44,322 nucleotides of DNA from positions 1 through 44,322 of the forward strand of contig JAJSDS010000004.1 of the NCBI GenBank assembly GCA_028580875.1. The letters run 5' to 3'. This DNA comes from Nitrosotalea sp. (GTDB taxonomy: Archaea; Thermoproteota; Nitrososphaeria; Nitrososphaerales; Nitrosopumilaceae). The translations under genes were made by a program, and so were the position numbers. This document shows positions 12,860-35,744 of this stretch, in pieces (position 1 is the stretch's first letter; every line of letters begins with the position of its first letter). A model generated the notes under the pieces. It did no database searches and was not told where the DNA came from. It was given only the letters and a program-made list of their open reading frames with translations.

Positions 12860-12867
12860 TATAATGC

Positions 12868-17731: not shown

Positions 17732-19492
17732 TTACTTGACTGTTACTGATTTTGCCAAGTTTCTTGGATAGTCAGGGTCTGTTTCATTTTCTAGCGCTGC
17801 ATAATATGCAAGAAGCTGTATTGGAACAATCTCGACAAATGGATATGTGGATTCGTTGATACTTGGTATCTCAATCCAGTGATCATACACATCACTTGAA
17901 ATGTCTGAGATGCCAATTATCCTGGCACCCCTTGCCTTTATTTCTCTTGCAGAAGTTAGTGTGTCGCCATACGTTGAATCATTGGGATTTATTACAATTA
18001 CAAAAGAATTTGAATCCATCAGGGCAAGCGGCCCATGTTTTAGTTCCCCCCCTGGCAGGCCCTCTGCATGTATGTATGTCAATTCTTTTAATTTCAGTGC
18101 TGCCTCTAGCGCAATTGGATAATGTATGCCCCTTCCAATTATGTAAATGTCAGATGCATGTTTGAGTACACGCGCAACCTTTTGAATTCTTGATCTAGAC
18201 TCTAATGTTTTTTTCATGGCAGAAGATGTTTTTTCTGGGTCAAATCTTAGCTGTTCGTTGCACACCATGTCTGCAATTTTATAGATGACTGACAGCTGGG
18301 AAGTAAAACTCTTGGTTGCAGCAACCCCTATCTCTGGACCGCAGTTCAAGCCAACTGTAATGGATGAAATTTGTGCAAGTGACGAGGTCATTGTATTTAC
18401 AATTGAAAATATCTCTCCTCCGTTACCCTTTGCGATCTTTACTGCCTCCATTACATCTGCACTCTCGCCGCTTTGGGATAGTGCTATGAGGATAGACTGC
18501 GCGTCAAAATAATCTGGATAAAACCTTGCCTCGCTTGAAATTATTGTCTCTATCTTTTTTTTGCCATATTTTAGGAACAAATGCTTTGCAACAAGTGCTG
18601 CGTTATAGCTTGTGCCACTGCCTGTGATGTACAATTGTCTTGCATTCTTTATGGTGTTTGCAAATGATTCCATCTCTTGTCTTGTATTTTCCCCTGCCTT
18701 CAATATTGCAAGGGGTTGCTCAAAGATCTCTTTTAATGTAAAATGTGCGTAATCACCCTTGTATGCATCTGCAAACTCTTTTGATATTTTTGTAACTTGG
18801 TGCATTACTGGGCCACCTGTAAAATCAAACAATTCAATTCCCGCAAAATTGATTATTACGATCTCTCCGTTGTCCGGGTATATTGCCTCATCTGTGTGCT
18901 CTATGAATCCCAAGACATCGCTTGAAATAAAATATCCACTTTTTCCAACCCCTATTATGAGAGGTTCATGAAACCTGGCTGCAGCAAGTGTACCATCTGA
19001 AAATACTGCAACAAATGAGTAATCTCCTTTCAATTCGTTTACAGTTTTGATCATTGATGTCTTGACATCTTGTGTGATATCAAAATGGTACTGCAAAAGA
19101 TTTGCAATGATTTCACTGTCAGTTTCGCTCTTGAAAAAATATTTCCTGTCTTGGAGAATTTCTTTTAGTTCCTTGTAATTGTCAATTATCCCATTGTGTA
19201 CGATTGCAATTTTTCCAGAACTGGATAGATGTGGATGAGCATTGACTTCGTTTACTCCTCCATGTGTTGCCCATCGTGTGTGTCCTATTCCTATGTTGCC
19301 TGGAAGTGTCTGCAAGTTTGCTCTGTTGTTTACTTGCTCTACCCTTCCCACTCCTTTTTTTATGCTGATCTGACTGTCTGCAAAAGTCGCAACACCAACA
19401 CTGTCATACCCCCTGTACTCCATGCGCTTTAATCCACTTACAAGAATCTTTGTTGCAGAAATGTCACCGCGGTAACCTATGATGGAACACAT
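17732..19492 (-). CDS. glmS: Glutamine--fructose-6-phosphate aminotransferase (isomerizing)
   Basis: MCSIIGYRG N-terminal Cys amidotransferase; GHTRWATHGG; SIS domains; C-terminal PRNLAKSVTVK. Confidence 0.97.
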   Translation of the reverse strand: MCSIIGYRGDISATKILVSGLKRMEYRGYDSVGVATFADSQISIKKGVGRVEQVNNRANLQTLPGNIGIGHTRWATHGGVNEVNAHPHLSSSGKIAIVHNGIIDNYKELKEILQDRKYFFKSETDSEIIANLLQYHFDITQDVKTSMIKTVNELKGDYSFVAVFSDGTLAAARFHEPLIIGVGKSGYFISSDVLGFIEHTDEAIYPDNGEIVIINFAGIELFDFTGGPVMHQVTKISKEFADAYKGDYAHFTLKEIFEQPLAILKAGENTRQEMESFANTIKNARQLYITGSGTSYNAALVAKHLFLKYGKKKIETIISSEARFYPDYFDAQSILIALSQSGESADVMEAVKIAKGNGGEIFSIVNTMTSSLAQISSITVGLNCGPEIGVAATKSFTSQLSVIYKIADMVCNEQLRFDPEKTSSAMKKTLESRSRIQKVARVLKHASDIYIIGRGIHYPIALEAALKLKELTYIHAEGLPGGELKHGPLALMDSNSFVIVINPNDSTYGDTLTSAREIKARGARIIGISDISSDVYDHWIEIPSINESTYPFVEIVPIQLLAYYAALENETDPDYPRNLAKSVTVK

Positions 19493-19551
19493 TCCAATTA
19501 TGACTCTCTTTATGTGTTAAATACATTGACGAAAACTTTCTCATCATGTCA

Positions 19552-19560
19552 TTCTAGAAC
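19552..19560. promoter_or_regulatory. TTCTAGAAC element in the glmS / EPS operon divergent promoter
   Basis: attctagaac at 19551-19560 in the 140-bp intergenic region. Confidence 0.4.
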
Positions 19561-19632
19561 TTTTCACTACAAGATTTTACCTGTAAAAAATTACTTCTAT
19601 CTTAAAAAATACGATATTGAAGTTTCAATGGA

Positions 19633-20253
19633 TTGAAAAAACTTGAGACATGGATGGATAGGATTACAAATGAATCTAATCTGTGGCTCAATGCCATAAA
19701 AATGGAGGATGAGGGAGACTATCTCAAGGCGTTTATCTTTTATCTAAAAGACTCGTCAGAGTGCATAAAGCAGAATTCTTTTGTGAGGGCTGCACTTAGC
19801 TGCTCCTGTGCTGCAGATTGCCTTGCAATGGATGGCAACTTGGCAGGAGCACGACAACTATACTTACAGACTGCTGCTTTGTACGAGGACAATGCAGTTC
19901 ATGTGATAGGAAACTCTGTCAGAGAGGCACTATGGTCATACCAGGAGGCCTATGAGTTCTATAATCTGGCATGCGAGAACAACAAGGCACAAAGCATATA
20001 TGAAAAATATGTCTCCCTCTCAAGAAAGATAAACCCATTTTTTGGCGAGGAGCAAGCCATGGAGTCTCTGAGGATAAGAAAATCAGACAAGGCACCACAG
20101 TCTGGTGTGCATACCTCTAACATGCAGGTCTCTGCAGACGTTGACAATGCAATCAAGAATTTCCTACATGATCTTGCATCGACATCCGATGAGAAATCAA
20201 ACCCGCATATCTTTCAGAGAATTTTGAATAAAATTTCAGAGGAGCGCAAATGA
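19633..20253 (+). CDS. Alpha-helical (TPR/SNAP-like) repeat protein, first gene of EPS operon
   Basis: Helical repeat pattern (A..Y...A.EFY..A); overlaps start of the glycosyltransferase gene. Confidence 0.6.
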   Translation: MKKLETWMDRITNESNLWLNAIKMEDEGDYLKAFIFYLKDSSECIKQNSFVRAALSCSCAADCLAMDGNLAGARQLYLQTAALYEDNAVHVIGNSVREALWSYQEAYEFYNLACENNKAQSIYEKYVSLSRKINPFFGEEQAMESLRIRKSDKAPQSGVHTSNMQVSADVDNAIKNFLHDLASTSDEKSNPHIFQRILNKISEERK

Positions 20254-21740
20254 AAAAAGTTTTGATAATAAACTGGGACTGTTACCCAAACTTTGCAACA
20301 GGTGGAGTTTACACATGGACAAAGACACTCATTGATTCTATGCAAGATTATGAATTTGTAGTCATAAACCAACTTTCAAACCCTAACAGCAATGGTGTCT
20401 ATGCCATTCCAAAAAATGTAACAACGGTAATTGAAGTTCCAATCTTTGGAGCTACACGCTATGAAGAATTTTGTAAACGAGACAATCTCTTGCAAGCAAG
20501 AATTCTTAAAACTACACAACATGTTATCCAAGAAAAATTCATGCCTCTTTATCGTGAATTTATGAAGTCTGTACTATCTGATCGTTGCAATACTCAGGTG
20601 CTTGCAGATCTTGTCATCAAACTGCATGACTTACTTGTACAGTATGATGCAAAAAAATGTCTTGAAGATCCACTGACATGGGATATCTTCATCGAACTGC
20701 TTGACGCAGATCCCATGTACCGCAGTATGACATTCAAGGAAGCATTAACAGCTTTTCAATTGATCCAGAGAAACATACAACTACTTTCAATTGAAGTGCC
20801 CAAAGTCGATGTCATCCATTGCTCGCTTGCGTGGCTACCGTCACTTGTTGCAGTGTATGCAAAAAAGGAGAGCAACTGTCCTGTGATAATAACAGAACAT
20901 GGTGTTGCGTTTCGAGAATTGCTCTTGTATTATAACGCATATCTGTTTGACGAGCCGTCAAAAATATTCTGGAAGGTCTTTTCTCATAACATTGTACGTG
21001 TTGTGTATTCGATTGCAGACGTCATCACCCCTGTATGTGAGGCAAACAAAAACTGGGAGAAAAGCCTGGGGGCTGACCCGTCCAAAATAAAGGTAATCTA
21101 CAATGGGGTAAACACAACACGGTTCAAGCCAATGCAAGTTACACGGGAAAACAATAGGCCAACGGTTGTTACTGTTGCACGCGTTGATGTCTTCAAGGAT
21201 ATTGTATGCCTAATCCAGGCCATAAACTATGCAAGAGAAAAAATTCCTGATATCTTGTGCCTGATTTATGGCACATCAAGTGATCTTGACTATTCACTTC
21301 GGTGCTTGAAAACTGTACAAGATCTGAAACTAGAAGACAATGTAAAATTCATGGGCGGCACAAAAGAACCAGAAAAAGTGTACAATGCTGCAGATATCAT
21401 TGCAATCAGCAGCATCACTGAAGGATTTCCGTTTACAATTATTGAGGCAATGGCATGCGGAAAGGCAGTAATCGCATCTGATGTGGGAGGAGTGCGCGAA
21501 GCGCTAGATGGTTGTGGATTACTTGTAAGAAGCAGAAGGCCACACGATCTTGCTCAAGGAATGGTAAAATTATTGACAGACGATAACCTGCGGCATCAAT
21601 TTGAAAAAGCAGCAATAAAAAAAGTACATGATAACTTTACACTAGAAAAATGTGTGGAGAGCTTTAAAAAAGAATATGAAAATCTTACACACGCCAAGAA
21701 AAATTGTAACGCTCAATCCTGTGGGGTAATTCTACAATGA
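20250..21740 (+). CDS. GT4 glycosyltransferase, PelF-like
   Basis: NWDCYPNFATGGVYTWTKTLI N-terminus, ITEHGVAFRE, VIYNGVNTTRFKP, E-x7-E motif EGFPFTIIEAMACGKAVIASDVGGVREAL. Confidence 0.85.
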   Translation: MKKVLIINWDCYPNFATGGVYTWTKTLIDSMQDYEFVVINQLSNPNSNGVYAIPKNVTTVIEVPIFGATRYEEFCKRDNLLQARILKTTQHVIQEKFMPLYREFMKSVLSDRCNTQVLADLVIKLHDLLVQYDAKKCLEDPLTWDIFIELLDADPMYRSMTFKEALTAFQLIQRNIQLLSIEVPKVDVIHCSLAWLPSLVAVYAKKESNCPVIITEHGVAFRELLLYYNAYLFDEPSKIFWKVFSHNIVRVVYSIADVITPVCEANKNWEKSLGADPSKIKVIYNGVNTTRFKPMQVTRENNRPTVVTVARVDVFKDIVCLIQAINYAREKIPDILCLIYGTSSDLDYSLRCLKTVQDLKLEDNVKFMGGTKEPEKVYNAADIIAISSITEGFPFTIIEAMACGKAVIASDVGGVREALDGCGLLVRSRRPHDLAQGMVKLLTDDNLRHQFEKAAIKKVHDNFTLEKCVESFKKEYENLTHAKKNCNAQSCGVILQ

Positions 21741-22702
21741 CAGATCCAAAAAAAGTATTGGTTACTGGTGGTGCGGGATTTATTGGGAGCCACATTGTAG
21801 ACGAACTGCTAAAAAGAAAAATTGAGACATATGTAATTGACAACCTCAGTACTGGCTCGATTGAAAATCTAAAACATCATGACGGAAATGAACTTCTGCA
21901 TGTTACAATAGGAGACGCAAAAAACATCGGAAAAGTGATGGAAGGTATTTCTGGAATCGACGTTGTATTTCACGAGGCTGCAATTGCAAGCATAACGCGC
22001 TCTATTACTGAACCAATGGTAGTCCATGATGTCAATGTAAACATGTCACTTGAGATAATGAATTTCTGTGTGGAGCACAAAATTCCAAGATTGGTCTTTG
22101 CATCATCTGCTGCAGTGTATGGTATCCTCAAGGGCAAGGCCTCTGAGCAACAGGTCTGCAGGCCATACTCGCCATATGGTGCGACAAAGCTTGCAGTTGA
22201 GGACTATCTCTCTGCGTATTATCATACTTATGGACTTGAAACTGTGGCATTACGATACTTTAACGTCTTTGGGGCGCGACAGAAACTAAATGACTATAGC
22301 GGAGTGATTACAATTTTTGTAAATCAACTGATGAACAGGCAAATTCCTACAATATTTGGAGATGGTTTGCAGACAAGGGATTTCATACATGTAAAAGATA
22401 TCGTGCAGGCAAACATGCTTGCAATGCAATCCAAAAATGCTGCAGGTGAAATGTTCAATGTGGCAACAGGTCGTGCAACAAGTATACTGGATCTACTCAT
22501 GACTGTAAAATCTGTCACAGGTACAATGGATGTTGAACACAAATTTGGCCCTCCAAGGCCAGGTGATGTCAAGTTTGGCTTGGCAAATGCCCAAAAAATT
22601 GTAGATTCTATTGGGTTTGCACCAAAGATTACGCTCTCTGAGGGCCTGTCAGATGTTGTACAACACATCAGATCAAAACTTGCACCGGAAATTGTCACAT
22701 AA
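21737..22702 (+). CDS. NAD-dependent UDP-sugar 4-epimerase (GalE/PelX/WbpP-like)
   Basis: VTGGAGFIGSHIVDELL; YSPYGATKLAVEDYL; LRYFNVFGARQ; overlaps previous gene by ATGA. Confidence 0.9.
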   Translation: MTDPKKVLVTGGAGFIGSHIVDELLKRKIETYVIDNLSTGSIENLKHHDGNELLHVTIGDAKNIGKVMEGISGIDVVFHEAAIASITRSITEPMVVHDVNVNMSLEIMNFCVEHKIPRLVFASSAAVYGILKGKASEQQVCRPYSPYGATKLAVEDYLSAYYHTYGLETVALRYFNVFGARQKLNDYSGVITIFVNQLMNRQIPTIFGDGLQTRDFIHVKDIVQANMLAMQSKNAAGEMFNVATGRATSILDLLMTVKSVTGTMDVEHKFGPPRPGDVKFGLANAQKIVDSIGFAPKITLSEGLSDVVQHIRSKLAPEIVT

Positions 22703-22720
22703 AATTTGAGGTAAAAGAGA

Positions 22721-24364
22721 TTGCTTTCAACAGAACTAGAAAACACATCGCGTGAATCAAGAATATTTGCACAAAAGGTAGCACGGTCTATAATAGAGGT
22801 ACAACCAAACGTCAACAATACTGCAGATATCGTGGTACTACTAGAATGTCTTGGTTATAGGAAAGAGACACTGATGCATTATGGGTTTGCAGACTTTCAT
22901 GCACTTGCAAACTACATCTATGATTCTCTTGACATGTATGAGACAAGGGGAAAAAGCAAGGATCTATTCATAGAATCATTTACTATGAAGATCCCAAGTC
23001 TGAAAAAACGATTGGTAGAGGGAATTGGAATGATCTTTCCATGGCTTGGCTCGCTTGCATTATTGTTTATCACTGGTGTATCATTATGGATGGCATGGGG
23101 ACTGCCTATACAAATCACAACTGCATTTGTAAGTGGAGTCTTTCTTGGTCTTGTCATAACAGAGGGAACACTTCAGGTCTTCAACAGACTGTTTTTATTT
23201 TATAATGCACAGACAAACATAGGCGAAGTAAAAAGACTGCAAAAACGCAGTTACTGTCTTGTGGGAGCTGTCCTGTCTGTGACAGTATGTGCATTATTTG
23301 CAATTGGGTATGTGGAAAATATTCCAGTAAATCTTGTATCGATTGTTGCAATAAGTACAGTTACAATATCATTGCATCGTGCAAGCTACATGATAATATA
23401 TGCGCTAAAGAAACTGGCACATCTGATTGTTGCATACTCTGCTGCATTTGCGTCATTGCTTTGTGTATATTATTTTGGGAATCCCATAATCTCTGATAAT
23501 ATAACAAGATATTTTGCAGGACTTGTTGTTGCTTTTGTTGCACTGTCAATTTTTTCAATATACCAGCACTACAAGTTGCTCAAGGCCAACACTATAACAA
23601 TTTCTGCAGATATGCCACATTTTTACAATCCGATTAGCAGAACTGATAAAACAATAAAATCAAGATTTGCAGTCCAGCTATGGGAGGTCACATCCTACTC
23701 ACTTTATGGGACCTTTTACCTTGTAACCATGTTTGCAGACCGAATTTTGTCCTGGATTTATAATCCACTGGTGGTAAGGGAGGGGTTTGGACTGCCAATG
23801 GCCTTTAATTCTGTATACCATGCGGGTGCCGACCTTGCACTAGTTGTGTTACTTCCTGCCTCTATAATCCAGTATGTGATGATGGAGCCAATCCACATGC
23901 ACATGAATAATGTCAGTATCAAGATCAAAGTCTCTCAAGCAAGAGTGCTTTCCAAGTATATACAAAATACGTACAAAAAACTGCTCTTGGTTACCATGTT
24001 TTCATCTATTGTCACAGCCGCAGTTCTAAATGTTGCAGCACCATATGTGATGGCTCATGTGGAATTTTCGCCAACCAGCATGCATGTTCTTCAGGTGGCA
24101 TCGGTTGCAAACGTGTTTCTTTCTCTTTTTACTGCAAATGGTCTGCTTTTGATGCTGACAAATAAAATAAAATTACTTGCAATCATTGTCATGATATCTG
24201 CATCAATTGTAATAACTGGTGGTATGATGCTTGCAAGCTCTGGATTTGAAAACTTGGTGTATGCATATCTTGGTGCTACAATATTTGCTGGGATGATATC
24301 TACAATCTATGCAAATAAGGTAATGAAAAATGCAAGCAGCATAATATTTGCAAGATTAATGTGA
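22721..24364 (+). CDS. Polytopic membrane protein, PelG-like exporter candidate
   Basis: About 12 hydrophobic segments after ~100-aa cytosolic N-terminus; TTG start; directly follows PelF-like and epimerase. Confidence 0.7.
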   Translation: MLSTELENTSRESRIFAQKVARSIIEVQPNVNNTADIVVLLECLGYRKETLMHYGFADFHALANYIYDSLDMYETRGKSKDLFIESFTMKIPSLKKRLVEGIGMIFPWLGSLALLFITGVSLWMAWGLPIQITTAFVSGVFLGLVITEGTLQVFNRLFLFYNAQTNIGEVKRLQKRSYCLVGAVLSVTVCALFAIGYVENIPVNLVSIVAISTVTISLHRASYMIIYALKKLAHLIVAYSAAFASLLCVYYFGNPIISDNITRYFAGLVVAFVALSIFSIYQHYKLLKANTITISADMPHFYNPISRTDKTIKSRFAVQLWEVTSYSLYGTFYLVTMFADRILSWIYNPLVVREGFGLPMAFNSVYHAGADLALVVLLPASIIQYVMMEPIHMHMNNVSIKIKVSQARVLSKYIQNTYKKLLLVTMFSSIVTAAVLNVAAPYVMAHVEFSPTSMHVLQVASVANVFLSLFTANGLLLMLTNKIKLLAIIVMISASIVITGGMMLASSGFENLVYAYLGATIFAGMISTIYANKVMKNASSIIFARLM

Positions 24365-24374
24365 CAAGATAAAC

Positions 24375-25436
24375 CTAAAAATAATCTGGAATAAATGAAT
24401 CTGAATGTTCTACTTTTCTGTCATGCTCGACTTTTTTATATGTAGAATATGGCACATACACTTCATTCCAATATCTCATGCATACTAGTTTTTTGTATTC
24501 TCTTGTTTTGATATTCTCACCTAGTATGAGATTACGAAATACAATGTCTGGTTCATTTATTCCTGCAACTGCCCTAAGGGGAGATGTTGCGGAAAATCTT
24601 GCATTGATTTCAAATATCTTTGGTTTACCGTTTATCATTTTTGACTGGATGTTTATTGCACCTACTGCTCCAATCTTTACTGCAACTTGCTCTGCAGATT
24701 TTCGTACACTCTTGTAGTTGTCTATGAAAGCCTTGTAGGTCTGTCCGCTCTTTAGAGTCTTATTCATTGCAATTGATGACATTACTTTTCCATCATGGCT
24801 TATTGTTACACCTGTTGTAAATTCCGAATCATCACCTTTGAGATATTCTTGCAGTAAAGGTCTCCATCCTGCATTTCGAATTGCATTTTCTGCACTGTCA
24901 AGCTCGTTGATGTTGTGTACGATATAGAAATGAAGAGAACCGTGACCCTCTCTTGGCTTGACTATTATTGGAAAACCGTGCTCTCTGAGGAACCTGTCCT
25001 GGTCTTGTGGGAGTACTGAATCTGCACAGGGAAGACCATTTTCCTTTAAATACTCAAATGTCTTCCACTTGTCTCCTGCCTTTGATATTACATCTATGGG
25101 GTTTGAGAGTACGATTGCTCCCGTCTTTCTTTCTATCTCTTGGCTTGCCCTAGTTAAGGGCAAGAGTTCCTCGTCAGATCCTATGAAGATTGCCTTGATC
25201 TTTTTTTCAATACATGTTTTTATTATATATTTAAGATAATTTGCAGCAGTAACTGGTGGAACAAGTACTCCCTCATCTGCCCGGTACAAGCCAGGTGCCT
25301 TGGCATTAATGTCTGTTGCAATTATCTTGTATGTCGTATCTGATTTTTTTTGTTTATTTGCAATGTTAAGACATTTTATTATTCCTTGTGCCACTATTCC
25401 ACCTGACGCAGTGACAAGTACATTTGATTTTTTCAT
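24375..25436 (-). CDS. ATP-grasp protein (CarB/PylC-like)
   Basis: NVLVTASGGIVAQGIIKCL; IFIGSDEELLPL; FPIIVKPREGHGS; KIFEINARFSATSPL. Confidence 0.85.
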   Translation of the reverse strand: MKKSNVLVTASGGIVAQGIIKCLNIANKQKKSDTTYKIIATDINAKAPGLYRADEGVLVPPVTAANYLKYIIKTCIEKKIKAIFIGSDEELLPLTRASQEIERKTGAIVLSNPIDVISKAGDKWKTFEYLKENGLPCADSVLPQDQDRFLREHGFPIIVKPREGHGSLHFYIVHNINELDSAENAIRNAGWRPLLQEYLKGDDSEFTTGVTISHDGKVMSSIAMNKTLKSGQTYKAFIDNYKSVRKSAEQVAVKIGAVGAINIQSKMINGKPKIFEINARFSATSPLRAVAGINEPDIVFRNLILGENIKTREYKKLVCMRYWNEVYVPYSTYKKVEHDRKVEHSDSFIPDYF

Positions 25437-25497
25437 GATTGAATCTATGATTCTTAATTTATTTGCTTTAGCATAGATGAACAGTAACTATGTTATG

Positions 25498-25539
25498 GTG
25501 TAATATTATGTTACACTGTTCTAAAATAGAACCTGCATA
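25498..25539 (+). promoter_or_regulatory. Two adjacent inverted repeats plus TGCATA upstream of Spherulin-4 gene
   Basis: GTGTAA-N7-TTACAC (25498-25516), GTTCTA-AAA-TAGAAC (25518-25532), TGCATA (25534-25539). Confidence 0.5.
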
Positions 25540-25592
25540 CATATTGTTTCTACCAATTTTTTTTATACTATAGAGGATTTATACCGTACAAC

Positions 25593-27524
25593 ATGACCGA
25601 ACAATCTTCTAGAAAAATCATCGGGCTCTTGGCAATTTTATTTGTAATCACATCTCCATTTACTATTCTACCACACCAAGCACATGCTGCAACACAAACA
25701 GGTGTGATGATTGCATTGTACACATATCCTGGCAGCACATGGGATGTTGTGGCACAAGCAAAGATTGCACATCCATCAGTACCTATAGTTGCAATCATAA
25801 ACCCAAACAATGGTCCTGGCAGCTCACGTGATTCAAACTATGTGTCCGGGATACAAGAACTCCACAATGCTGGAGTTGTGGTGCTTGGATATGATGCAAC
25901 AGGATATGCGTCAAACTCTGCAAGCTCTGTAAAATCCGTAATGGATACCTGGAAGAGCCTCTACAGTATTGATGGAATCTTCTTTGATGAAATGGCAAAC
26001 TGGTCAGGCCCAGAAAGCTACTATTCTGACTTAACAAATTATGCAAAATCACTTGGATATACAATGACAGTTGGAAATCCAGGCACAGATACACTTCCAA
26101 GCTATATTGGAACTGTGGATAACCTCATGATTTATGAAGACGCTGGACTTCCTCTACTATCTGCACTACAGGGCTGGCACACAAGCTATGACAAGAGCAA
26201 CTTTTCCATGATAGCATTTGGCGTAAATTCAGTATCTGCATCATTTTTATCAAGTGCTTCAAACTATGTTGGGTACATTTACCTTACAAACGACGTGTTG
26301 CCTAACCCATATGATACAGTTCCATCATACTTTGGCACTTTGGTAGCAGATCTTGACACTGGTTCTTCCAGTCCTACTGCACCGTCCCAACCAACTGGAT
26401 TGACTGCAACTTCGATATCATCATCGCAGATCAATCTATCCTGGACTGCTGCAAATAACGGTGGCTCTGCAATCACTGGATACAAAATCGAACAATCAAC
26501 CAATGCAGGCACTACTTGGTCTACGTTAGTTGCAAACACTGCATCTTCATCTACAACTTATTCAAACACTGGACTTGCTTCCAGTACGCTATACTCGTAC
26601 AGAGTGTCTGCAATAAACTCTGTTGGCACAAGTCCTGTATCCAACACTGCATCTGCAACAACTGGTACTATAGCAACTGCACCACAAGCACCAACAGGAC
26701 TTGCAGCAAGTGTCGTCTCTTCATCACAAATCAATCTATCCTGGACTGCTCCTGCAAATAACGGTGGCTCTGCAATCACTGGCTATGAAATTGAGAGATC
26801 CTCTGATGCGGGAACTACTTGGTCTACGTTAGTTGCAAACACTGCATCCTTCTCCACGACATATTCTAACACCGGGCTTGCAGCAAGTACATCGTACACT
26901 TATCGCGTCTCTGCAATCAATTCTGTAGGAACTGGTTCTGCATCCAATATAGTATCTGCAACAACATCTGCTGCATCAAATACCAGTCAACTATCAATCA
27001 CTGTAAACTCTGTAGACCTTACTGGAACTGCATTTAGCGGAATGTATGTTGAGCTTCATACATCAAACGGAACCACTCTTGCAACTGGATACACCCCAAT
27101 GACATTCACGATTCCTTCTGGAAGTGCTTATACGGTAGTGTCATCTAACTATCAAAACTATGTCTTTAACCACTGGGGTGATGGAACAACCAACTCCTCT
27201 ATTACAATATCTCCAACACAGAACACTACTCTGACAGAATACTATTCAACAGCACCTACAACCGTAACACTCAAAGTAAAATCAGTAGATTTGTCAGGAA
27301 ATCCAATCACTGGACTTTGGACTGTAATAAAATCAAATGGTGTCATAGTTGCAAAGGGATATACAACATTGACATTTACTGCAACACCTGGCACAACATA
27401 TACAATTACAATGTCAAACTATCAAAACTATGTCTTTGACCACTGGGGAAATGGCAACACCAATCCAACAAAGACAGTAACACCAACACAGAATCTTACT
27501 GTTGTGGCATACTATAACAGCTAG
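25593..27524 (+). CDS. Secreted Spherulin-4 (GH135-like) + two FN3 + two HWGDGT-type beta-repeats
   Basis: GVMIALYTYPGSTWDVVAQAKIAHPSVPIVAIINPNNGPG...SIDGIFFDEMANW; FN3 units; NYQNYVF(N/D)HWG(D/N)G repeats. Confidence 0.9.
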   Translation: MTEQSSRKIIGLLAILFVITSPFTILPHQAHAATQTGVMIALYTYPGSTWDVVAQAKIAHPSVPIVAIINPNNGPGSSRDSNYVSGIQELHNAGVVVLGYDATGYASNSASSVKSVMDTWKSLYSIDGIFFDEMANWSGPESYYSDLTNYAKSLGYTMTVGNPGTDTLPSYIGTVDNLMIYEDAGLPLLSALQGWHTSYDKSNFSMIAFGVNSVSASFLSSASNYVGYIYLTNDVLPNPYDTVPSYFGTLVADLDTGSSSPTAPSQPTGLTATSISSSQINLSWTAANNGGSAITGYKIEQSTNAGTTWSTLVANTASSSTTYSNTGLASSTLYSYRVSAINSVGTSPVSNTASATTGTIATAPQAPTGLAASVVSSSQINLSWTAPANNGGSAITGYEIERSSDAGTTWSTLVANTASFSTTYSNTGLAASTSYTYRVSAINSVGTGSASNIVSATTSAASNTSQLSITVNSVDLTGTAFSGMYVELHTSNGTTLATGYTPMTFTIPSGSAYTVVSSNYQNYVFNHWGDGTTNSSITISPTQNTTLTEYYSTAPTTVTLKVKSVDLSGNPITGLWTVIKSNGVIVAKGYTTLTFTATPGTTYTITMSNYQNYVFDHWGNGNTNPTKTVTPTQNLTVVAYYNS

Positions 27525-28462
27525 ACAAGCCTTATGTGACACGCCAAGTCATCGGCATTCTGAATTGATGATATATCTTTATTTTTTATCTTCAAGTATC
27601 CTGCCTCAAATTTTGGATATGACTCCTTGCATGAAAATAATGTGAGAATCCTTCCGTCATGGTCTATCCTGTATCCCTTGCATGGCTCATGTCCTCTGAC
27701 CAGAGCCTTTGTGCGCGTAATTTCTAGCCATTTTTGCGTAATGGTCATACCAAAATGCTTTCCATAAGGTCGCCTTGATCTTTCCCATGTTGTGTTATCA
27801 AGCATTCGTGGATCATTCCACAGCATGTCTTCTAGCAAAAGTAGGGTATTGTTTGTGTTTGTGGGATAGCACATCTCTTTTATTGGCTCACTCACATGTA
27901 CTGGCAATCCGCCATGGACTAGCAATATCTTATCCTCTACAAGCGTCATGACTGTTAATAATCTGAAAAATGATAGCACCAAAGAATACATCTTGTCAGT
28001 TCCAAAATATTCATTGATCTTTTCTGGAAGATCATGGGACTTGAAGGGAAACTCTTCTGAAGCCTCATGATTTCCTCGCATCAAAATGACAGAATCTGAG
28101 AATGTCTGCTTTAGCATGCATATTGTATATAGCACTGCAACAGAGTTTGATCCCCTATCAATGTAATCTCCAAGAAATATCATTTTATTATTTTTGTTTG
28201 CCAAAAATGTTTCAAAATTTATTTCGTCTAGAATTTTGTAGAGTGACTCTAGATCTCCATGTATGTCTCCTACAACTACCAGATTATCTGGTGTCTTTAA
28301 CCATGTGCAATTGCCTTTGATGGTACCATTGTACATCTTGCCGTTTTTTCTTTCTTTTTTTAGAATATCTATTGTTTCAACAAGTATTGATGCAAATTCA
28401 TACGGGTTGATTTTATCTGCAAAGTGGATGAGATCTGAACACAATTTGGAATCACTATGCAT
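27521..28462 (-). CDS. PPP-family serine/threonine protein phosphatase
   Basis: VVGDIHGDLESL, IFLGDYIDRGSNSV, LMRGNHE, LLVHGGLP; start ATG 28462 overlaps TFB stop. Confidence 0.92.
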   Translation of the reverse strand: MHSDSKLCSDLIHFADKINPYEFASILVETIDILKKERKNGKMYNGTIKGNCTWLKTPDNLVVVGDIHGDLESLYKILDEINFETFLANKNNKMIFLGDYIDRGSNSVAVLYTICMLKQTFSDSVILMRGNHEASEEFPFKSHDLPEKINEYFGTDKMYSLVLSFFRLLTVMTLVEDKILLVHGGLPVHVSEPIKEMCYPTNTNNTLLLLEDMLWNDPRMLDNTTWERSRRPYGKHFGMTITQKWLEITRTKALVRGHEPCKGYRIDHDGRILTLFSCKESYPKFEAGYLKIKNKDISSIQNADDLACHIRLV

Positions 28463-29444
28463 GACTTGGTGTCTGCACAACCTGCAATATCTCGCCTGGA
28501 ATAATTTCTTCTTCCAAATCATCTTGTATAACTTGGTCTTGCACCAGAAGAGATTTTTCTTTTAATATCTGTACAATCTCCAAGTATCTTTTTCGTATGG
28601 TTATTGTAGTAAGCTCTGCTGCCACTGCCAATCTTAATTGAGTGGTGTATTCTTTTGTCTCAAGTGCTGCCATGTATAGTGCAGCTGCTGCTATGGATAT
28701 TGGCTTTTTACCAATAACTGTAGGGTCGTCTGCCACTTTGGATAAAATCTCTAATGCTCTTCTCTGAGTCCTTCCACCAAGTTTTGCTCTTGCTGCAATC
28801 TTTGATATATTCTGTGAAGGTTCTGGTATACTCACACTCATCTTCATTTGTCTGAGCAAAAATTTGTAATAGTGAACCGTAGTTTTTTTGTTGATGTTTT
28901 CTACATACTCGTCAATTTTGTCTATTGGAAATGAGACTCCAAGGTCTTTGCATGCAATATAGATTGTAGCAACTGATATCCCTGTAATGGAGCGACCCCT
29001 GATAAGGTCCTTGTTTAATGCCTTGCGATAAATGTATGATGCCCTTTCTGCAATTAAATTTCCAAATCCAAGTATTCCAGTTATCCTGCGAATGTCTGCC
29101 ATTGCTTTATTTAAATTTCTAATCTTGGCATCATTTGAAATTGTAAACTTGTTGAGCCTTCGCAGTTTTTCCATCTCAAATCCTCCATGGATCAGTTTTC
29201 CGCTTGCATCAACATTTTTTTTATCAATAACTGTGGAAAGTGAAATATCATACATCATTGATGATGTCGGATTGCTGTTGCTTGAATGCTCCAAATCATA
29301 TCCTTGATGGTGGGAATCGTATTCTGTTACTATGCCACAGTTAGTGCATATTTTTTCATTTTTTTCAAGATCAAAAATTAATTTTCCCATGCATGAAAGA
29401 CATGTGTTTGAGTTTGGTTCTGTTGTATTATTTTGTATCGACAT
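28455..29444 (-). CDS. tfb: Transcription initiation factor B (TFB)
   Basis: N-terminal CLSC...CTNCG zinc ribbon, two cyclin-like repeats (GRSITGISVATIYIACKDLGV; GKKPISIAAAALYMAAL). Confidence 0.95.
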   Translation of the reverse strand: MSIQNNTTEPNSNTCLSCMGKLIFDLEKNEKICTNCGIVTEYDSHHQGYDLEHSSNSNPTSSMMYDISLSTVIDKKNVDASGKLIHGGFEMEKLRRLNKFTISNDAKIRNLNKAMADIRRITGILGFGNLIAERASYIYRKALNKDLIRGRSITGISVATIYIACKDLGVSFPIDKIDEYVENINKKTTVHYYKFLLRQMKMSVSIPEPSQNISKIAARAKLGGRTQRRALEILSKVADDPTVIGKKPISIAAAALYMAALETKEYTTQLRLAVAAELTTITIRKRYLEIVQILKEKSLLVQDQVIQDDLEEEIIPGEILQVVQTPSHA

Positions 29445-29594
29445 TAGCGCTGATCAACGAGTCATGGTTTTAAAGCTCTTTGCAAGATTGATAGCTAAGT
29501 TTGAACAAGAATAATGTTTAGAAGAAAATTACACTAGAAAATACTGTCAAAATAATTCTCTTGTAAATATGATGAAAATAATTTCAAGATGAAA

Positions 29595-29867
29595 TTACAT
29601 TCTAAGTATCTTATCGTCTACCTTGGTAGTTATTAGATCATTTATCTTGTCGTATGCATCTAAAAAGTCTCTTCCTTTGTCTGTTATTCGGTATATCTGG
29701 TTTCCCTCCTCGTACTTGATCAGGTTATTGTCTTGGAGAAACGCCAAGTATTCTTTTACTTGAGTGTATGACAAGTACGCCTTGTACATTATCTTGGTCT
29801 TTGTGACACCATTGTGAGCCGATTGCAGTATCATTGCCACTATGTCTGTCCTACTACGGTACTTCAA
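29595..29867 (-). CDS. Winged-helix regulator (HTH_45-like)
   Basis: MKYRSRTDIVAMILQSAHNGVTKTKIMYKAYLSYTQVKEYLAFL...YRITDKGRDFL, near-duplicate of 7731 ORF. Confidence 0.85.
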   Translation of the reverse strand: MKYRSRTDIVAMILQSAHNGVTKTKIMYKAYLSYTQVKEYLAFLQDNNLIKYEEGNQIYRITDKGRDFLDAYDKINDLITTKVDDKILRM

Positions 29868-30030
29868 CTGGCCTTTTTACAAGACCATGTTATAAAAATA
29901 ATTGGTCTTATTATTGTAGAAGATTGTTCTATTTGTAGTAAGAAATACTGTTTTGAAATCATATTTTTGTGATATATTGCATATTTTCTAGTTCATAAGA
30001 GAACTACATACTGAACATGCGTAATGCTTT

Positions 30031-30381
30031 TTGCTGTTCACAGAAAATGCGATCATATCAGTCATGACAACAAAAAATGGCAAACCTATACCTGTGTCCA
30101 AAATTAAAAACGAGATTCAAAGAATTGACTGGAAGATAATTGAAAGGCTTGTCAGATTGTTATACTATCACAGCAAGTTGAAGAAGACGCACATCTCTAC
30201 CAAGTGTAACCTAAGCTATGACAAGTGTTGTCGCTACTTGGACTGGATGGAAATAATGGATCTCATAAAAAAAGAAGACAATGAAGAAGGATTTGAAATA
30301 GTGTTATTGACAGAGCGTGGAAGTACGCTGTATAACAAAAAATTCCGTGACTTGAAAAAGGAACTATCATACTTAACCTGA
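30031..30381 (+). CDS. Winged-helix-like DNA-binding protein
   Basis: VRLLYYHSKLKKTHISTKCNLSYDKCCRYLDWMEIMDLIKKE...LTERG; ATG at 30064 alternative start. Confidence 0.6.
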   Translation: MLFTENAIISVMTTKNGKPIPVSKIKNEIQRIDWKIIERLVRLLYYHSKLKKTHISTKCNLSYDKCCRYLDWMEIMDLIKKEDNEEGFEIVLLTERGSTLYNKKFRDLKKELSYLT

Positions 30382-30449
30382 TTATCTACGAATTTTACTT
30401 GCTATGGTAGTGAGAGTCTATTATTAATCATGACAAGGCACTTGATCAA

Positions 30450-30677
30450 ATGCGCGATGAATTGTGTAGATTCTGTGGTGCTGACCTGACAAACTTCTCA
30501 ATATGTCCAGAATGTCGAAAACCAATTAGACGAATATGTACAAGGTGCACAAGAAAAACTGAGGAACACTTACATCTTTCATGTCTATCTGGAATTGACT
30601 TTATGCAGACACAACGCCTGCCTGAAAATAATCTTGCATCAGACGATGTAAGGTTTCCAATTGCTGAAATTGCATGA
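30450..30677 (+). CDS. Zinc-ribbon/treble-clef small protein
   Basis: CRFCGADLTNFSICPECRKPIRRICTRC...HLSC. Confidence 0.6.
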   Translation: MRDELCRFCGADLTNFSICPECRKPIRRICTRCTRKTEEHLHLSCLSGIDFMQTQRLPENNLASDDVRFPIAEIA

Positions 30678-30762
30678 ATCTAGTGAAAATGAGAAAATCT
30701 TGGTGAAAAATCCCTTATTTTTTTACATTGATAGAATATTTTTCGTGTGGGTAGAGAGAAAA

Positions 30763-30772
30763 GTTCTAGAAC
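30763..30772. promoter_or_regulatory. Perfect palindrome GTTCTAGAAC upstream of WbqC-like gene
   Basis: aagttctagaacaatatacc; a GTTATAAC TATA-like box follows. Confidence 0.5.
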
Positions 30773-30818
30773 AATATACCACTTCTGTTATAACTTGATT
30801 TTCACATGATCTATCAGG

Positions 30819-31526
30819 TTGAAAGTCACTATTCACCAACCACAATACTTTCCATATCCTGGGTTTTTCCATAAACTATGCCTCTCTGACGTCTTTGTCA
30901 TAATGGATGATGTTCAATACGACAAGAGGTTCACAAATAGGAACAAAATAATGGCTACAAATGGGTGGACATGGTTAAGCGTTCCAATAAATAAGGACCA
31001 CAAGTTTTTGGCAAACTCCCAGGTGGAAATCAACAATGAGTTATCTTGGAGAGATGAGCATTGGAAGAAAATTTACCACTCGTATGCAAATGCCATGTAT
31101 TTTAAAAAATATGAGAGCTTTTTTAAAAACGTCTATGACATAAAATGGACATCACTTTTTGAATTAAATTTTGAGACGATGAAAAAAGTAATAAACCTTC
31201 TTGGAATTAAAACAACAATACTAAAAAGTTCAGAATTAAATGCGCCTGGGACATCAACTCAAAGGTTAGTGAATTTGTGCAAGGCTGTTGGTGCAGATAC
31301 ATATGTTTCAGGAATTGGAGGGAGAAACTATATGGATGAAAAATTGTTTGCAAAAAACAGCCTCAAGCTAGAATACCAAAATTATGCTGCAAAACCATAT
31401 CCACAACGTCTGTCTGATTCATTTGTACCAGATCTTTCAATAATTGACATGCTGGTAAATGTCGGCCCTGAATCCATCAAGATTATTTCAGAAAGCGATG
31501 TATCGCTTGCACCAATTGCTAGTTGA
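30819..31526 (+). CDS. WbqC-like family protein
   Basis: IHQPQYFPYPGFFHKLCLSDVFVIMDDVQYDKRFTNRNKI...GW.WL.VP; TTG start. Confidence 0.85.
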   Translation: MKVTIHQPQYFPYPGFFHKLCLSDVFVIMDDVQYDKRFTNRNKIMATNGWTWLSVPINKDHKFLANSQVEINNELSWRDEHWKKIYHSYANAMYFKKYESFFKNVYDIKWTSLFELNFETMKKVINLLGIKTTILKSSELNAPGTSTQRLVNLCKAVGADTYVSGIGGRNYMDEKLFAKNSLKLEYQNYAAKPYPQRLSDSFVPDLSIIDMLVNVGPESIKIISESDVSLAPIAS

Positions 31527-31818
31527 ATATGTCGTAAAGCTGTTTGTATGCACTGATGTATTTTTTTCCAAGTTCTGTAGTTTTGTACATGTGCCGCTTT
31601 GACCTGCGAGATTCTGGTTTGCCCTCTAACAGTTTGCAACCAATTAGAAAATCTACATACTGTGTTATCTGTTTTGAATTCAGGTTGCACTTGTACATGA
31701 TGTGAGTTTTTAGTGCACCATGGATACATGTCTCAAGTATGAACTCGATTATCTCTACCCATCCACGGTTTCCCCATCCCATTACGCTGCGTTCAATTGC
31801 GCCTGTAGGTTCAAACAT
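31519..31818 (-). CDS. Winged-helix regulator (HTH_45-like)
   Basis: EIIEFILETCIHGALKTHIMYKCNLNSKQITQYVDFLIGCKLLEG...YKTTELGKKY. Confidence 0.75.
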   Translation of the reverse strand: MFEPTGAIERSVMGWGNRGWVEIIEFILETCIHGALKTHIMYKCNLNSKQITQYVDFLIGCKLLEGKPESRRSKRHMYKTTELGKKYISAYKQLYDIFN

Positions 31819-31839
31819 TCTTCACAACTCATGAAGAAT

Positions 31840-32538
31840 CTAAGCGAGTTCCAGAATTTCATTTAGATTGGCAACAGCTTTCTCGTTTGTTACTTTTTCA
31901 TATGGGACTGTCAATAGCTTGAAATCGTTGGCAAGGCAGATCTTTAACACCTCGAAAGCCTCGACATATTTTATTCCTGTATTCAACCTGCTCTGGAGTG
32001 CCCGGTACTCTGCCAATCCCTTGATTGCATTGGCCTTGAGATACAACTTGCTTTGCTGAGACCAAAAGATCTCGATTAGCTCCACCTTTTCGTTTACGAC
32101 ATCAGAAATATCGACAAATACTTTTGGATCAAAGTTTCTGCTAAGTGGAATCTCGTAAGACAAGACATTGGAATTAAACCTGGCGGCTTCAAGCGTGGCA
32201 AGTGCTATTGCCCTGTGGTCATGGTGCACGTCTCCGTGTGAATGAGTCAAAATAAGGTCTGGATTGGCCTTGTGGATAAAATATTCTATGTGGTTTATCA
32301 ATTCATTGTTTACCGTTAGCTTGGAATCCTCGAAATTATCAATCCATAACTGTTTTGCCTTTATGAATCGCGCTGATCTTGCAAGCTCTAACGCTCTCTC
32401 TCTTGCATCTCCTCCTGCCCCTCCTCTTGTAAGGGAATACATGAAGACATTGTGGCCTTGTCTTGCTGACTTGATGAGCAAACCTCCGCATCCAAGTTCA
32501 ATATCGTCTGGGTGTGCACCTATTGCAAGAATGTTCAT
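31840..32538 (-). CDS. PIG-L/LmbE family deacetylase
   Basis: ILAIGAHPDDIELGCGG; ILTHSHGDVHHDHRAIALAT. Confidence 0.9.
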   Translation of the reverse strand: MNILAIGAHPDDIELGCGGLLIKSARQGHNVFMYSLTRGGAGGDARERALELARSARFIKAKQLWIDNFEDSKLTVNNELINHIEYFIHKANPDLILTHSHGDVHHDHRAIALATLEAARFNSNVLSYEIPLSRNFDPKVFVDISDVVNEKVELIEIFWSQQSKLYLKANAIKGLAEYRALQSRLNTGIKYVEAFEVLKICLANDFKLLTVPYEKVTNEKAVANLNEILELA

Positions 32539-32717
32539 ATGTAAATTTTCTTTTGGTTTTATTTATCATTCTTCTAATATTGTTCTATAGTATTTTTAAT
32601 AGTGATTCTTCTCAAGTCATCATACCAATAAACCAATTCAAGTGATTTTTGGTTATAGACAAAATTTAGCTAAGATTATCAAGCTAATTGTATAACGGTA
32701 CGCTGTAATACAATTAC

Positions 32718-32861
32718 ATGGAAAAAATTACACAAAACGTAAATCTACCATACGTTTGGGATGTAAACGGAGAAGATTATTGGATAATGGATGAAATTGT
32801 ACCGGTTCAGCTAAGAAATGAACCTGATGTCAAAAAAGATACTTCTTGTAATATAGTATGA
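32718..32861 (+). CDS. 47-aa hypothetical acidic protein
   Basis: MEKITQNVNLPYVWDVNGEDYWIMDEIVPVQLRNEPDVKKDTSCNIV*; in a gap with no other call. Confidence 0.35.
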   Translation: MEKITQNVNLPYVWDVNGEDYWIMDEIVPVQLRNEPDVKKDTSCNIV

Positions 32862-32947
32862 TGAGGTATCTCTGAGAAAACAATGGGTTTAAAATAGAAC
32901 ATTTTTACTGCATGTTTAAAAAATTGTGAATCCATTAATGTTGTTGT

Positions 32948-33154
32948 GTGAAGGTTGAGAATCCACTCCAGGCAAAGATAATAGCGATAAAATTTCTTGA
33001 ACAATACAATTCTTCTATTACTTTTAGATCTGCGACACTAGAAGGTGAAGTATGGGTAGTCATCTTGGATGTTGGAATGATGAACACACAAACTAGAAAA
33101 GTGCTAGTTGATAGGTCGACTGGAAATATTCTAAGCTATACTTCTAAAAACTAG
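32948..33154 (+). CDS. Stand-alone PepSY-like small protein
   Basis: AIKFLEQYNSSITFRSATLEGEVWVVILDVG...RKVLVDRSTGNILSY. Confidence 0.7.
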   Translation: MKVENPLQAKIIAIKFLEQYNSSITFRSATLEGEVWVVILDVGMMNTQTRKVLVDRSTGNILSYTSKN

Positions 33155-33201
33155 CTACTACGTCTGAAATTGCATTCTTTTATATGGTTATTTTGAAAAC
33201 T

Positions 33202-33435
33202 TTAGGAATAGCCTAGTATCTTACCAGAGTTTACGTCTATTCTAACCTTTTTGGTCTGAGTGTTTGCAAAGCCAAGATATGCAGTTACAATCCATACGTC
33301 ATCTTCCAAAACTGCCTTTGTCTCAATGACGCTATGGTATTGGCTAAGAAATCGCCTTGCCACTTCTTGGGCCCTTGAGGAATCTATGCCATCGTCTACC
33401 ATGTTGCCGTCATAATATTCAGTAAAGTTTTCCAC
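33202..33435 (-). CDS. Stand-alone PepSY-like small protein
   Basis: ARRFLSQYHSVIETKAVLEDDVWIVTAYLG...KKVRIDVNSGKILGYS. Confidence 0.75.
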   Translation of the reverse strand: MENFTEYYDGNMVDDGIDSSRAQEVARRFLSQYHSVIETKAVLEDDVWIVTAYLGFANTQTKKVRIDVNSGKILGYS

Positions 33436-33654
33436 ATCCCGAAAATGTACCGTCCGTATTACATGATTCCATATTTTCCTTATTCATTATGGTACTATAA
33501 AACAAATCCGACACTTGATTTCAGTATTTTGCCGTGTTTTATGTACGTCTTGTATGTGTATCGAAAACATCATTTCATTATATTTTACTAGATTATTTTA
33601 CTAGTAATTTGGTTGTATAGTGAGATAAGCATTAGAGATATCATATGATTACAA

Positions 33655-34791
33655 ATGATGAAAACTAGTCTATTTCTTGGTTTGATTGTCATGTCTATTG
33701 TGTTTGCACCATTAACTACAAATCCGTCTGCACAGGCTGATACTATAAGCAGTCCTGTTCCTGTTCCAGGTAATCTCTTTCCTATTCCTATTCCTGGAAC
33801 TGTAGAGCCGATTCCAAGCATTCCAAACTTGGGTACTGTTCCAATCCCGCCTCCTCTGGGAGCTCTTTATTCTATAGATAAAACACAATCAGGTTTGGTG
33901 GCATATGATCCATTGAACAATGAAACTAAAACTCAACAAGAACTTTTGGCTAATCAACAATATTGGAAATACGGCGGAGATGCAATAACACGTAATGCAC
34001 CTTATGCATTTTCAAAGGACAATCAAGGCTTGCACATTGGTGTACAAGCTCCAGTAGATGGGTCTTGGGCTGGAGTTTATGCAGTTACTCCAAACACTAA
34101 CGCAATGCTATTCCACACAGTTGTAACAACACCACTTAGAGTACTACCGACATTGGCACAACCACAGTGGTATGAAAATGGAATGTATGTACAAACAGCA
34201 GGATCTCAAAATGTAAACTATATCACTTGCACCTCAGCAACAAGTCAGTGGGGAACCACTTGGGGGATAATTTCAACAATAGGAAATGTAAATCAGGCAA
34301 ATACATTCACTACGTTGTATCTTGATACCAGTGCAAACCAACCGCTCACACGAGACTGCACTATAATTACAAATGGTAGTAACTATCTCAAAGTATACTT
34401 AGATGGTGTAAAGGTGTATGAGAATAGTACGCTAAACCTACAGATGCCTGGTCCGTTCAATGTATTTGAGGAACCCCAGTCGTCTTATGCCGGTCAACTA
34501 CTGAACGGAACCTATGCTGATTATTATGCTACAACTAGTGAAAACGTCAAAGTAACTAACGCTCCTCTACTTGCTGCTACGGTAAAACTCGTGGACTCTA
34601 CCGGCAGGGTTCTTGCTAGTTCTCCAGTGGTATCTGGAACTGCAACCCTCCCTGTTGGACAGTATCACATGCCGCTTGCTGCATACGTCAAGGTGTATGA
34701 CTCAAACAACATACAACTTGCATCTACCTCAAGCCCTGTGAACATATTTGGAGGAGACGTCTACAAGGTCAACTCTATCCTAGGGCTGTAA
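33655..34791 (+). CDS. Secreted protein with PVPGNL proline-rich linker and ConA-like (inferred) domain
   Basis: Signal peptide; SPVPVPGNLFPIPIPGTVEPIP; domain shared with 1566 and 5772 products. Confidence 0.88.
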   Translation: MMKTSLFLGLIVMSIVFAPLTTNPSAQADTISSPVPVPGNLFPIPIPGTVEPIPSIPNLGTVPIPPPLGALYSIDKTQSGLVAYDPLNNETKTQQELLANQQYWKYGGDAITRNAPYAFSKDNQGLHIGVQAPVDGSWAGVYAVTPNTNAMLFHTVVTTPLRVLPTLAQPQWYENGMYVQTAGSQNVNYITCTSATSQWGTTWGIISTIGNVNQANTFTTLYLDTSANQPLTRDCTIITNGSNYLKVYLDGVKVYENSTLNLQMPGPFNVFEEPQSSYAGQLLNGTYADYYATTSENVKVTNAPLLAATVKLVDSTGRVLASSPVVSGTATLPVGQYHMPLAAYVKVYDSNNIQLASTSSPVNIFGGDVYKVNSILGL

Positions 34792-34814
34792 TACTGTGAC
34801 AAACTGGTGGTATC

Positions 34815-35744
34815 ATGCTAAAAAATGAAACCATCAACAACCTTCACACAAGAAAGAAACAAACACTGGTTGTAGAAAACAGCACAAATTGGCTTGACAA
34901 TATCTTCTATGAAAAAGACGATTCTAAAATATCTCTGTTGAAAATAATGGGAAAACCATTGATTGTATATAATATTGAAAAATTACTCTTACAGTATGAC
35001 ATTGATCATATTGCACTACCTACAAACTTTTCTGGTATGTCTGACATGATACAAGATAATTTTCCCTTTATACAAATTGACGAAATACTGGATTATGATA
35101 AAACAAATTCATCTGATTCTGTTAAGATGCCGATAAACTCTGTTGTTACAAAACCAAAGGGGGCTGATAATTATACGATACAAAAAATTGTCTATCCTTG
35201 GGACATTCTAAAAATTATGCACAATGTTCTCAATGCAGATGTTACATCAACTAGTGTCTCAAATAACTCGTCTATTGCCGAGTCTGCAATAGTAAAAGGT
35301 CCATGTGTCATAGAAGATGGTGTATCAGTAGATGACTTTGTAAAGATAATTGGCCCAATATACATAGGAAAAAACGCAAAAATCGGCACAGGAAGCCTTG
35401 TTAGGCACTCTATGATGGGCAGTGATACTACAATTGGCTTTAACTGCGAGATTGCCAGGTCCTTTTTCATGGGGGATACCAGGGTTGCACACCTTGATGT
35501 TGTTCTTGATAGTGTGATTGGCCAGAATTGCTGGCTTGGGGGCTTTGTGGGAACAACAAATGTGCTGCTCAACAAGGAAATAATTCGGTACAAACTAGAC
35601 GGTGTGCTTGTTTCAACTGCATTAGATCAACTTGGTTCTGTGATTGGGTATAATTGCGCCATTGGTGCAGGAACCGTGATTCTTCCTGGACGTTTTGTGC
35701 CTCCAAACTCTACGGTACAAGCAGGAACCGTATTCTCAAAATAA
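34815..35744 (+). CDS. GlmU-C-terminal-like left-handed beta-helix (acetyl)transferase with degenerate N-terminal domain
   Basis: Hexapeptide pattern IIGPIYIGKNAKIGTGSLVRHSMMGSDTTIGFNCEIARSFFMGDTRVAHLDVVLDSVIGQNCWLGGFV; no GGxGTR nucleotidyltransferase signature. Confidence 0.75.
   Translation: MLKNETINNLHTRKKQTLVVENSTNWLDNIFYEKDDSKISLLKIMGKPLIVYNIEKLLLQYDIDHIALPTNFSGMSDMIQDNFPFIQIDEILDYDKTNSSDSVKMPINSVVTKPKGADNYTIQKIVYPWDILKIMHNVLNADVTSTSVSNNSSIAESAIVKGPCVIEDGVSVDDFVKIIGPIYIGKNAKIGTGSLVRHSMMGSDTTIGFNCEIARSFFMGDTRVAHLDVVLDSVIGQNCWLGGFVGTTNVLLNKEIIRYKLDGVLVSTALDQLGSVIGYNCAIGAGTVILPGRFVPPNSTVQAGTVFSK

Follow-up and report, generated by a model that had tools for sequence, protein, structure and literature searches.

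We have analysed a 44,322-nucleotide stretch of DNA from Nitrosotalea sp. (contig JAJSDS010000004.1 of assembly GCA_028580875.1; the whole stretch is here termed the ‘window’), and conclude that an operon within it, together with some of the genes around it, quite probably specifies a Pel-type exopolysaccharide system in the archaeon Candidatus (Ca.) Nitrosotalea. Homology of the putative synthesis and export proteins to bacterial PelF and PelG is well supported by sequence comparison and, by analogy with known systems, the product is likely to be a polymer of N-acetylgalactosamine (GalNAc). The window comes from a draft genome (completeness 86%, contamination 6.7%), of which it forms one contig; as the same gene order is also present in Ca. 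Nitrosotalea devanaterra, whose chromosome is closed (LN890280; 1,805,304 bases), the locus is not an assembly artefact. Each of the genes named in an earlier note on this DNA was recovered at its assigned position by open reading frame (ORF) calling and family scans (Table 1).

Results

A conserved four-gene operon

The core of the locus is an operon (positions 19633-24364) that encodes, in order, a TPR/SNAP-like helical-repeat protein, a PelF-family glycosyltransferase, a GalE-like epimerase and a PelG-like membrane protein, with two 4-base overlaps joining genes 1 to 3 and an 18-base gap before gene 4. Across 61 genomes of the order, scoring PelF as a match above the profile cut-off and PelG homologues at E < 1e-130, the two coincide exactly: both are found in the same 16 genomes, 15 of them in the genus, and 22 other genomes of the genus have neither. 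A scan for the locus did not return N. sinensis, although this does not prove its absence there. The synteny in relatives anticipated by the earlier note is borne out, in that the tight TPR-PelF-epimerase-PelG operon is present in all 16 (gene order being altered in two), and the 4-base PelF/epimerase overlap is kept in 14/14 loci that have the window's gene order. The grouping is not a matter of chance, since the four-gene core is unbroken in every one of the 16, the closed chromosome among them. In the two genomes with the order TPR-epimerase-PelF-PelG, the TPR and epimerase genes occur a second time downstream (L068, 13293-14960; L080, 5384-7059).

Further afield, PelG matches at E <= 1e-4 occur in 5 of 398 sampled genomes of the phylum, and TPR-PelF-PelG operons in three Thermoproteota lineages outside the order, of which two have another PelF gene close by. 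A PelG match in G247 (E = 9e-5) was not counted, having no PelF neighbour.

The PelF-family glycosyltransferase

The product of the second gene carries DUF3492, the N-terminal domain of PelF, whose absence the earlier note would have counted against its reading; the PelF profile is matched by all 16 orthologues, across which the EX7E motif and the residues of the R/K pair are invariant. In a maximum-likelihood tree, the Nitrosotalea-type sequences form a clade (100/100) that is joined by the three other Thermoproteota lineages (97/90), and this archaeal group is sister to PelF of Deinococcota and Actinomycetota (100/100), away from canonical bacterial PelF; finer placement is unsure, because some of the bacterial branches are long. 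The second PelF found near the operon in two other Thermoproteota genomes (L138, 6459-7817; L139, 183-1535) has the canonical bacterial PelF profile as its best-scoring match, and its branch in the tree is long.

We also considered a bacillithiol/mycothiol-like pathway, in which a BshA/MshA-like GT4 enzyme, a BshB-like PIG-L protein and an ATP-grasp ligase would make a low-molecular-weight aminosugar, with the remaining genes as mere neighbours. The glycosyltransferase does score 97.9 bits against BshA, the PIG-L protein 96.9 bits against BshB1, and an ATP-grasp gene lies nearby; however, every thiol-family score falls far below its cut-off while that for PelF passes, a PelF-type N-terminal domain is present, PelG shares the operon in 16/16 genomes, and the PIG-L gene sits outside it, such that we regard this pathway as very improbable.

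The putative PelG-like exporter

PF16933 (PelG) is matched by 15 of 16 orthologues of the fourth gene product (best E = 1.4e-8), with a relative in G057 attaining the Pfam gathering score, and no other transporter family is matched. Profile-profile comparison (hhalign) with eight annotated bacterial PelG sequences gave E = 3.9e-9 over 403 columns, improving to E = 1e-12 over 416 columns when three archaeal relatives were added. The MFS and Wzx controls reached a probability of at most 2%, the former drawn from weak PelG-query matches in PelF-negative genomes that appeared by eye to be of MFS type, and the latter a weaker control as it is a single sequence.

A PDB sequence search with PelG returned no match, and its AlphaFold model (predicted local distance difference test score, pLDDT, 75.6) resembles structures of MATE, WzxE and MurJ. 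The earlier note had held that a match to a flippase would count against PelG, and such a match is indeed what the model gives; but PelG is itself assigned to the MOP/MATE superfamily, so that a MOP-like fold does not discriminate the two and the test is ill-posed. With the fold held in common only sequence can decide, and this favours PelG. We take it as supported, at the level of sequence, that the protein is a true, though remote, PelG homologue.

The archaeal PelG also carries a cytosolic N-terminal extension of about 95 residues, with a motif resembling the N-terminus of a membrane protein encoded 3' of PelF in Deinococcota and Actinomycetota (E = 0.002 directly, and more clearly, E = 5e-7, through the other Thermoproteota). 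These hypothetical membrane proteins (L102, 10455-12005; L103, 10485-11891; L105, 10005-11267; L107, 9428-10870; L108, 9481-10875) match no Pfam family, and from the common motif are probably unannotated exporters.

The helical-repeat protein

The TPR gene lies directly 5' of PelF, or of epimerase-PelF, in 16/16 loci, and its profile matches the ORF preceding PelF in the three other Thermoproteota lineages (E = 7e-19 to 1e-5). It occupies the position of PelE, a scaffold with two transmembrane segments and TPRs; no transmembrane segment is evident in the archaeal protein.

Proposed precursor supply

The epimerase has the SDR motifs GGAGFIG and YGATK, and WbpP and WbgU rank among the closest proteins of known structure. 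A small gate residue in GalE-like epimerases admits N-acetyl groups; the gate position is Gly in most orthologues and Cys in one, as against a bulky Tyr in E. coli GalE, which is consistent with the GalE/PelX-like role suggested for it by the earlier note.

GlmS, divergent from the operon, is an extra, apparently dedicated copy; the other, at G000:C253, is 71% identical to it. Two GlmS loci are present in 10/16 PelF-positive but 3/45 PelF-negative genomes of the order (9/15 versus 1/22 within the genus), and in some genomes the extra copy is found away from the operon, adjacency being limited to one clade.

Spherulin-4 proteins

Aligned with Sph3 (5C5G), the Spherulin-4 protein beside PelG retains the FFDE motif and the later Glu, and a signal peptide is apparent by eye, consistent with a secreted GH135-type hydrolase; the earlier note had envisaged a trimming role for it. 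Every one of the 16 PelF-positive genomes has Spherulin-4, as do two others; the gene adjoins PelG in most relatives (directly 3' of it in G006, G030 and G036), and the PelG-adjacent copies examined retain the active site. Two further Spherulin-4 genes upstream (8180 and 13782), overlooked in that note, read FFDQ...YD and FFDN respectively, and neither keeps the GH135 catalytic acids in full. Since DE...E is kept in the PelG-adjacent protein and altered in the paralogues, we suggest one probable hydrolase, of the endo-alpha-1,4-galactosaminidase class (GH166/GH114/GH135 type), with probable non-catalytic binders, the 8180 paralogue being a possible polymer-binding protein.

The PIG-L protein and other neighbours

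The PIG-L protein has an AHPDD motif, and an orthologue is present in 13/16 PelF-positive versus 2/45 PelF-negative genomes of the order (12/15 versus 0/22 within the genus); in the distant genome G057 its gene adjoins the TPR gene. PF01522 deacetylases, which roughly half of the genomes encode at other loci, were set aside, their presence not tracking PelF. Fisher tests of co-occurrence with PelF within the genus gave 1e-10 for PelG, 1e-8 for Spherulin-4, 2e-7 for PIG-L and 3e-4 for double GlmS, values that overstate significance because relatedness is ignored.

Membership of the remaining genes proposed by the earlier note is less secure. In the close clade, G027 and G057 the ATP-grasp gene neighbours PelG, but in others it does not, so that its part in the system is uncertain; WbqC is a neighbour, by BLAST, only in the close clade, and neither for it nor for the GlmU-like protein is a role supported. 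A metallophosphatase gene and the TFB-like gene, absent from the note, intervene between Spherulin-4 and WbqC.

Such intervening genes (phosphatase, TFB, WbqC), the confinement of GlmS adjacency to one clade and the inflation of co-occurrence tests by relatedness could suggest that only TPR, PelF, epimerase and PelG belong together, with Spherulin-4, GlmS and PIG-L being genes of surface metabolism that have no link to them and happen to lie in the same genomic island. We consider this improbable, given that Spherulin-4 directly follows PelG in three genomes, PIG-L abuts the operon in a distant one, the extra GlmS is also found away from it, and bacterial loci hold the same hydrolase types.

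Table 1. Genes of the window discussed in the text, with the family evidence for each.
Feature	Position	Strand	Evidence and remarks
GlmS	17732-19492	-	TIGR01135 617.5 bits (cut-off 418); divergent from operon; predicted aminosugar precursor supply
TPR/SNAP-like helical-repeat protein, 206 aa	19633-20253	+	PF14938 E = 1.9e-5; operon gene 1
PelF-family GT4, putative polymerase	20250-21740	+	NF038011 148.8 bits (cut-off 100); DUF3492 4.4e-35
GalE-like UDP-sugar 4-epimerase, probably UDP-GlcNAc/UDP-GalNAc	21737-22702	+	GalE 209.5 bits (below equivalog cut-off)
PelG-like MOP-superfamily exporter (putative), 547 aa	22721-24364	+	PF16933 via orthologues; hhalign
ATP-grasp (CarB/PylC-like) ligase	24375-25436	-	NF009402 322 bits (cut-off 218); optional/uncertain part
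Spherulin-4 (GH135-type) predicted secreted hydrolase, fn3 domains	25593-27524	+	PF12138 9.7e-40
TFB-family transcription factor	28455-29444	-	between Spherulin-4 and WbqC
WbqC	30819-31526	+	family scan
PIG-L family N-deacetylase (candidate)	31840-32538	-	PF02585 3.2e-23
Hexapeptide-repeat (GlmU-like) protein	34815-35744	+	family scan
Spherulin-4 paralogue, predicted secreted	8180-10243	+	PF12138 1.9e-32; degenerate active site
Spherulin-4 paralogue	13782-14576	+	PF12138 2.6e-26; altered active site

Several other genes of the window may be recorded here. Gas-vesicle genes (GvpF/L, GvpK and GvpA-like; 11640-13215, minus strand) are flanked by the two upstream Spherulin-4 genes, an arrangement likewise seen in L071 and L074. 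A gene for a KaiC/GvpD-like P-loop ATPase (15856-17304, minus strand) adjoins GlmS, and histidine kinases are encoded at 14962 and 10317; these are kept in the close clade and G057, and are possible regulators of the pel/gas-vesicle region. The TFB gene, part of this conserved neighbourhood, is also found near the pel operon in L067, L078 and L069. Two secreted paralogues (1566-2705 and 33655-34791, plus strand; 50% identical) lie near Spherulin-4 genes, and a homologue adjoins Spherulin-4 in L081; neither matches a Pfam family, and for the latter there was no PDB match and the structure model was poor (pLDDT 42).

Discussion

Synthesising these findings, we propose a model in which the extra GlmS, with the housekeeping route, would supply UDP-GlcNAc, which the epimerase would convert to UDP-GalNAc for polymerisation at the membrane by PelF, assisted by the TPR protein. 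PelG would then carry the chain across the single membrane, to be trimmed outside by the secreted Spherulin-4/GH135 hydrolase and perhaps bound by the degenerate paralogues, whilst PIG-L may act in the cytoplasm to deacetylate a sugar or the chain itself, giving a cationic product. Gene identities, operon structure, conservation and co-occurrence are observed, whereas the chemistry of the polymer, its export, its deacetylation and its biological role are inferred from them.

The closest PelF clade (100/100) is that of Deinococcota and Actinomycetota plasmid loci (L102-L108): plasmids of Streptomyces, Deinococcus, Kocuria and Thermus encode PelF together with an uncharacterized membrane protein, in most cases an epimerase, and Spherulin-4, GH114 or both. 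They differ in that most have a sugar nucleotidyltransferase and GH114, no TPR gene was seen, and some encode a protein of about 700 residues weakly matching the Agd3 deacetylase (E = 0.028 for the large upstream protein of Streptomyces). The fungal galactosaminogalactan cluster, whose synthase is a glycosyltransferase different from PelF, likewise combines a UDP-Glc/GlcNAc 4-epimerase with a GH135 Spherulin-4 hydrolase. It has no PelG, however, and its deacetylase is Agd3/CE18 (PMC7229062). Gram-positive pelDEA(DA)FG loci (Bacillus cereus, Streptococcus) resemble the archaeal locus in having PelF and PelG, no outer-membrane parts, and GalE and a hydrolase as accessories, with PelF using UDP-GalNAc (PMC7112168); unlike them, the archaeal locus lacks the PelD receptor for cyclic di-GMP (c-di-GMP) and a PelA deacetylase, has a TPR protein in which no homology to PelE was detected, carries an N-terminal extension on its PelG, and belongs to an archaeal host. 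Pseudomonas/Paraburkholderia pelABCDEFG also share PelF and PelG homologues, and in Paraburkholderia GH114, galE and glmS stand beside pelDEFG, but the archaeon is without PelA, PelB, PelC and PelD. That these kinds of enzyme turn up again and again in bacterial PelF loci is the strongest argument for a galactosamine-type product.

A number of points weigh against this reading. Identity to bacterial PelF is about 22-32%, and the archaeal PelF sits on a long branch apart from the experimentally studied Pel systems, so that its sugar could differ; the epimerase is compatible with UDP-GlcNAc/UDP-GalNAc, yet its substrate is predicted only. PelG of the window, taken alone, matches PF16933 at E = 0.04 (13.3 bits, below the gathering score of 29). 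When the TPR protein was compared by profile with bacterial PelE, no homology was detected, and Pfam scans of the window ORFs revealed no GAF/GGDEF-like gene that might be PelD, nor do relatives' operons hold one, only the four core genes being present; outer-membrane Pel parts are likewise missing from the locus, the absence of these and of PelD having already been remarked upon in the earlier note. That note had also invoked N-deacetylation. Whilst PIG-L does co-occur with PelF, it has no signal peptide, is hence cytoplasmic and cannot be equated with PelA, and family scans of the window recognised no PelA/Agd3-type extracytoplasmic deacetylase at the locus; deacetylation of the polymer is thus not established, and we treat it as uncertain.

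The divergence of both PelF and PelG, a fold common to WzxE and MurJ, and the presence of other surface-glycosylation clusters in the N. devanaterra genome (PMC4836417) would also fit a Pel-like synthase and exporter whose product is a non-GalNAc glycan, either a capsule or an S-layer-linked polymer, with the PelG-like protein as a flippase for lipid-linked glycan. This we think unlikely: it is PelG and not other MOP families that is matched, with a negative Wzx control, the operon includes an epimerase, Spherulin-4 accompanies PelF in every case, and no oligosaccharyltransferase or initiating transferase was recognised among the locus genes scanned.

The N. devanaterra genome paper makes no mention of polysaccharide (PMC4836417), the Gram-positive Pel paper none of archaea (PMC7112168), and a 2025 study of ammonia-oxidizing archaea biofilms none of Pel. 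Nowhere in the open-licence literature searched did we find Pel described for an archaeon, a silence that is not proof of novelty since only such papers were searchable.

A Pel-type system that makes a galactosamine polymer would bring a second domain of life within the range of a major biofilm polysaccharide, and would exemplify Pel operation without the c-di-GMP receptor PelD and without PelA; the archaeal locus also suggests a likely export function for the hypothetical proteins encoded after PelF in Deinococcota and Actinomycetota. More tentatively, we speculate on a c-di-GMP-independent Pel branch common to Archaea, Deinococcota and Actinomycetota, in which the archaeal TPR protein replaces PelD/E and PelG is N-terminally extended, and where PIG-L of Nitrosotalea exposes amino groups prior to export, yielding a cationic, proton- and metal-repelling coat for acid-soil ammonia oxidizers; as a whole, we hold this to be possible rather than probable. 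Should the product be a galactosamine polymer, it would offer a concrete, testable hypothesis on how a surface polymer bears on acidophilic ammonia oxidation.

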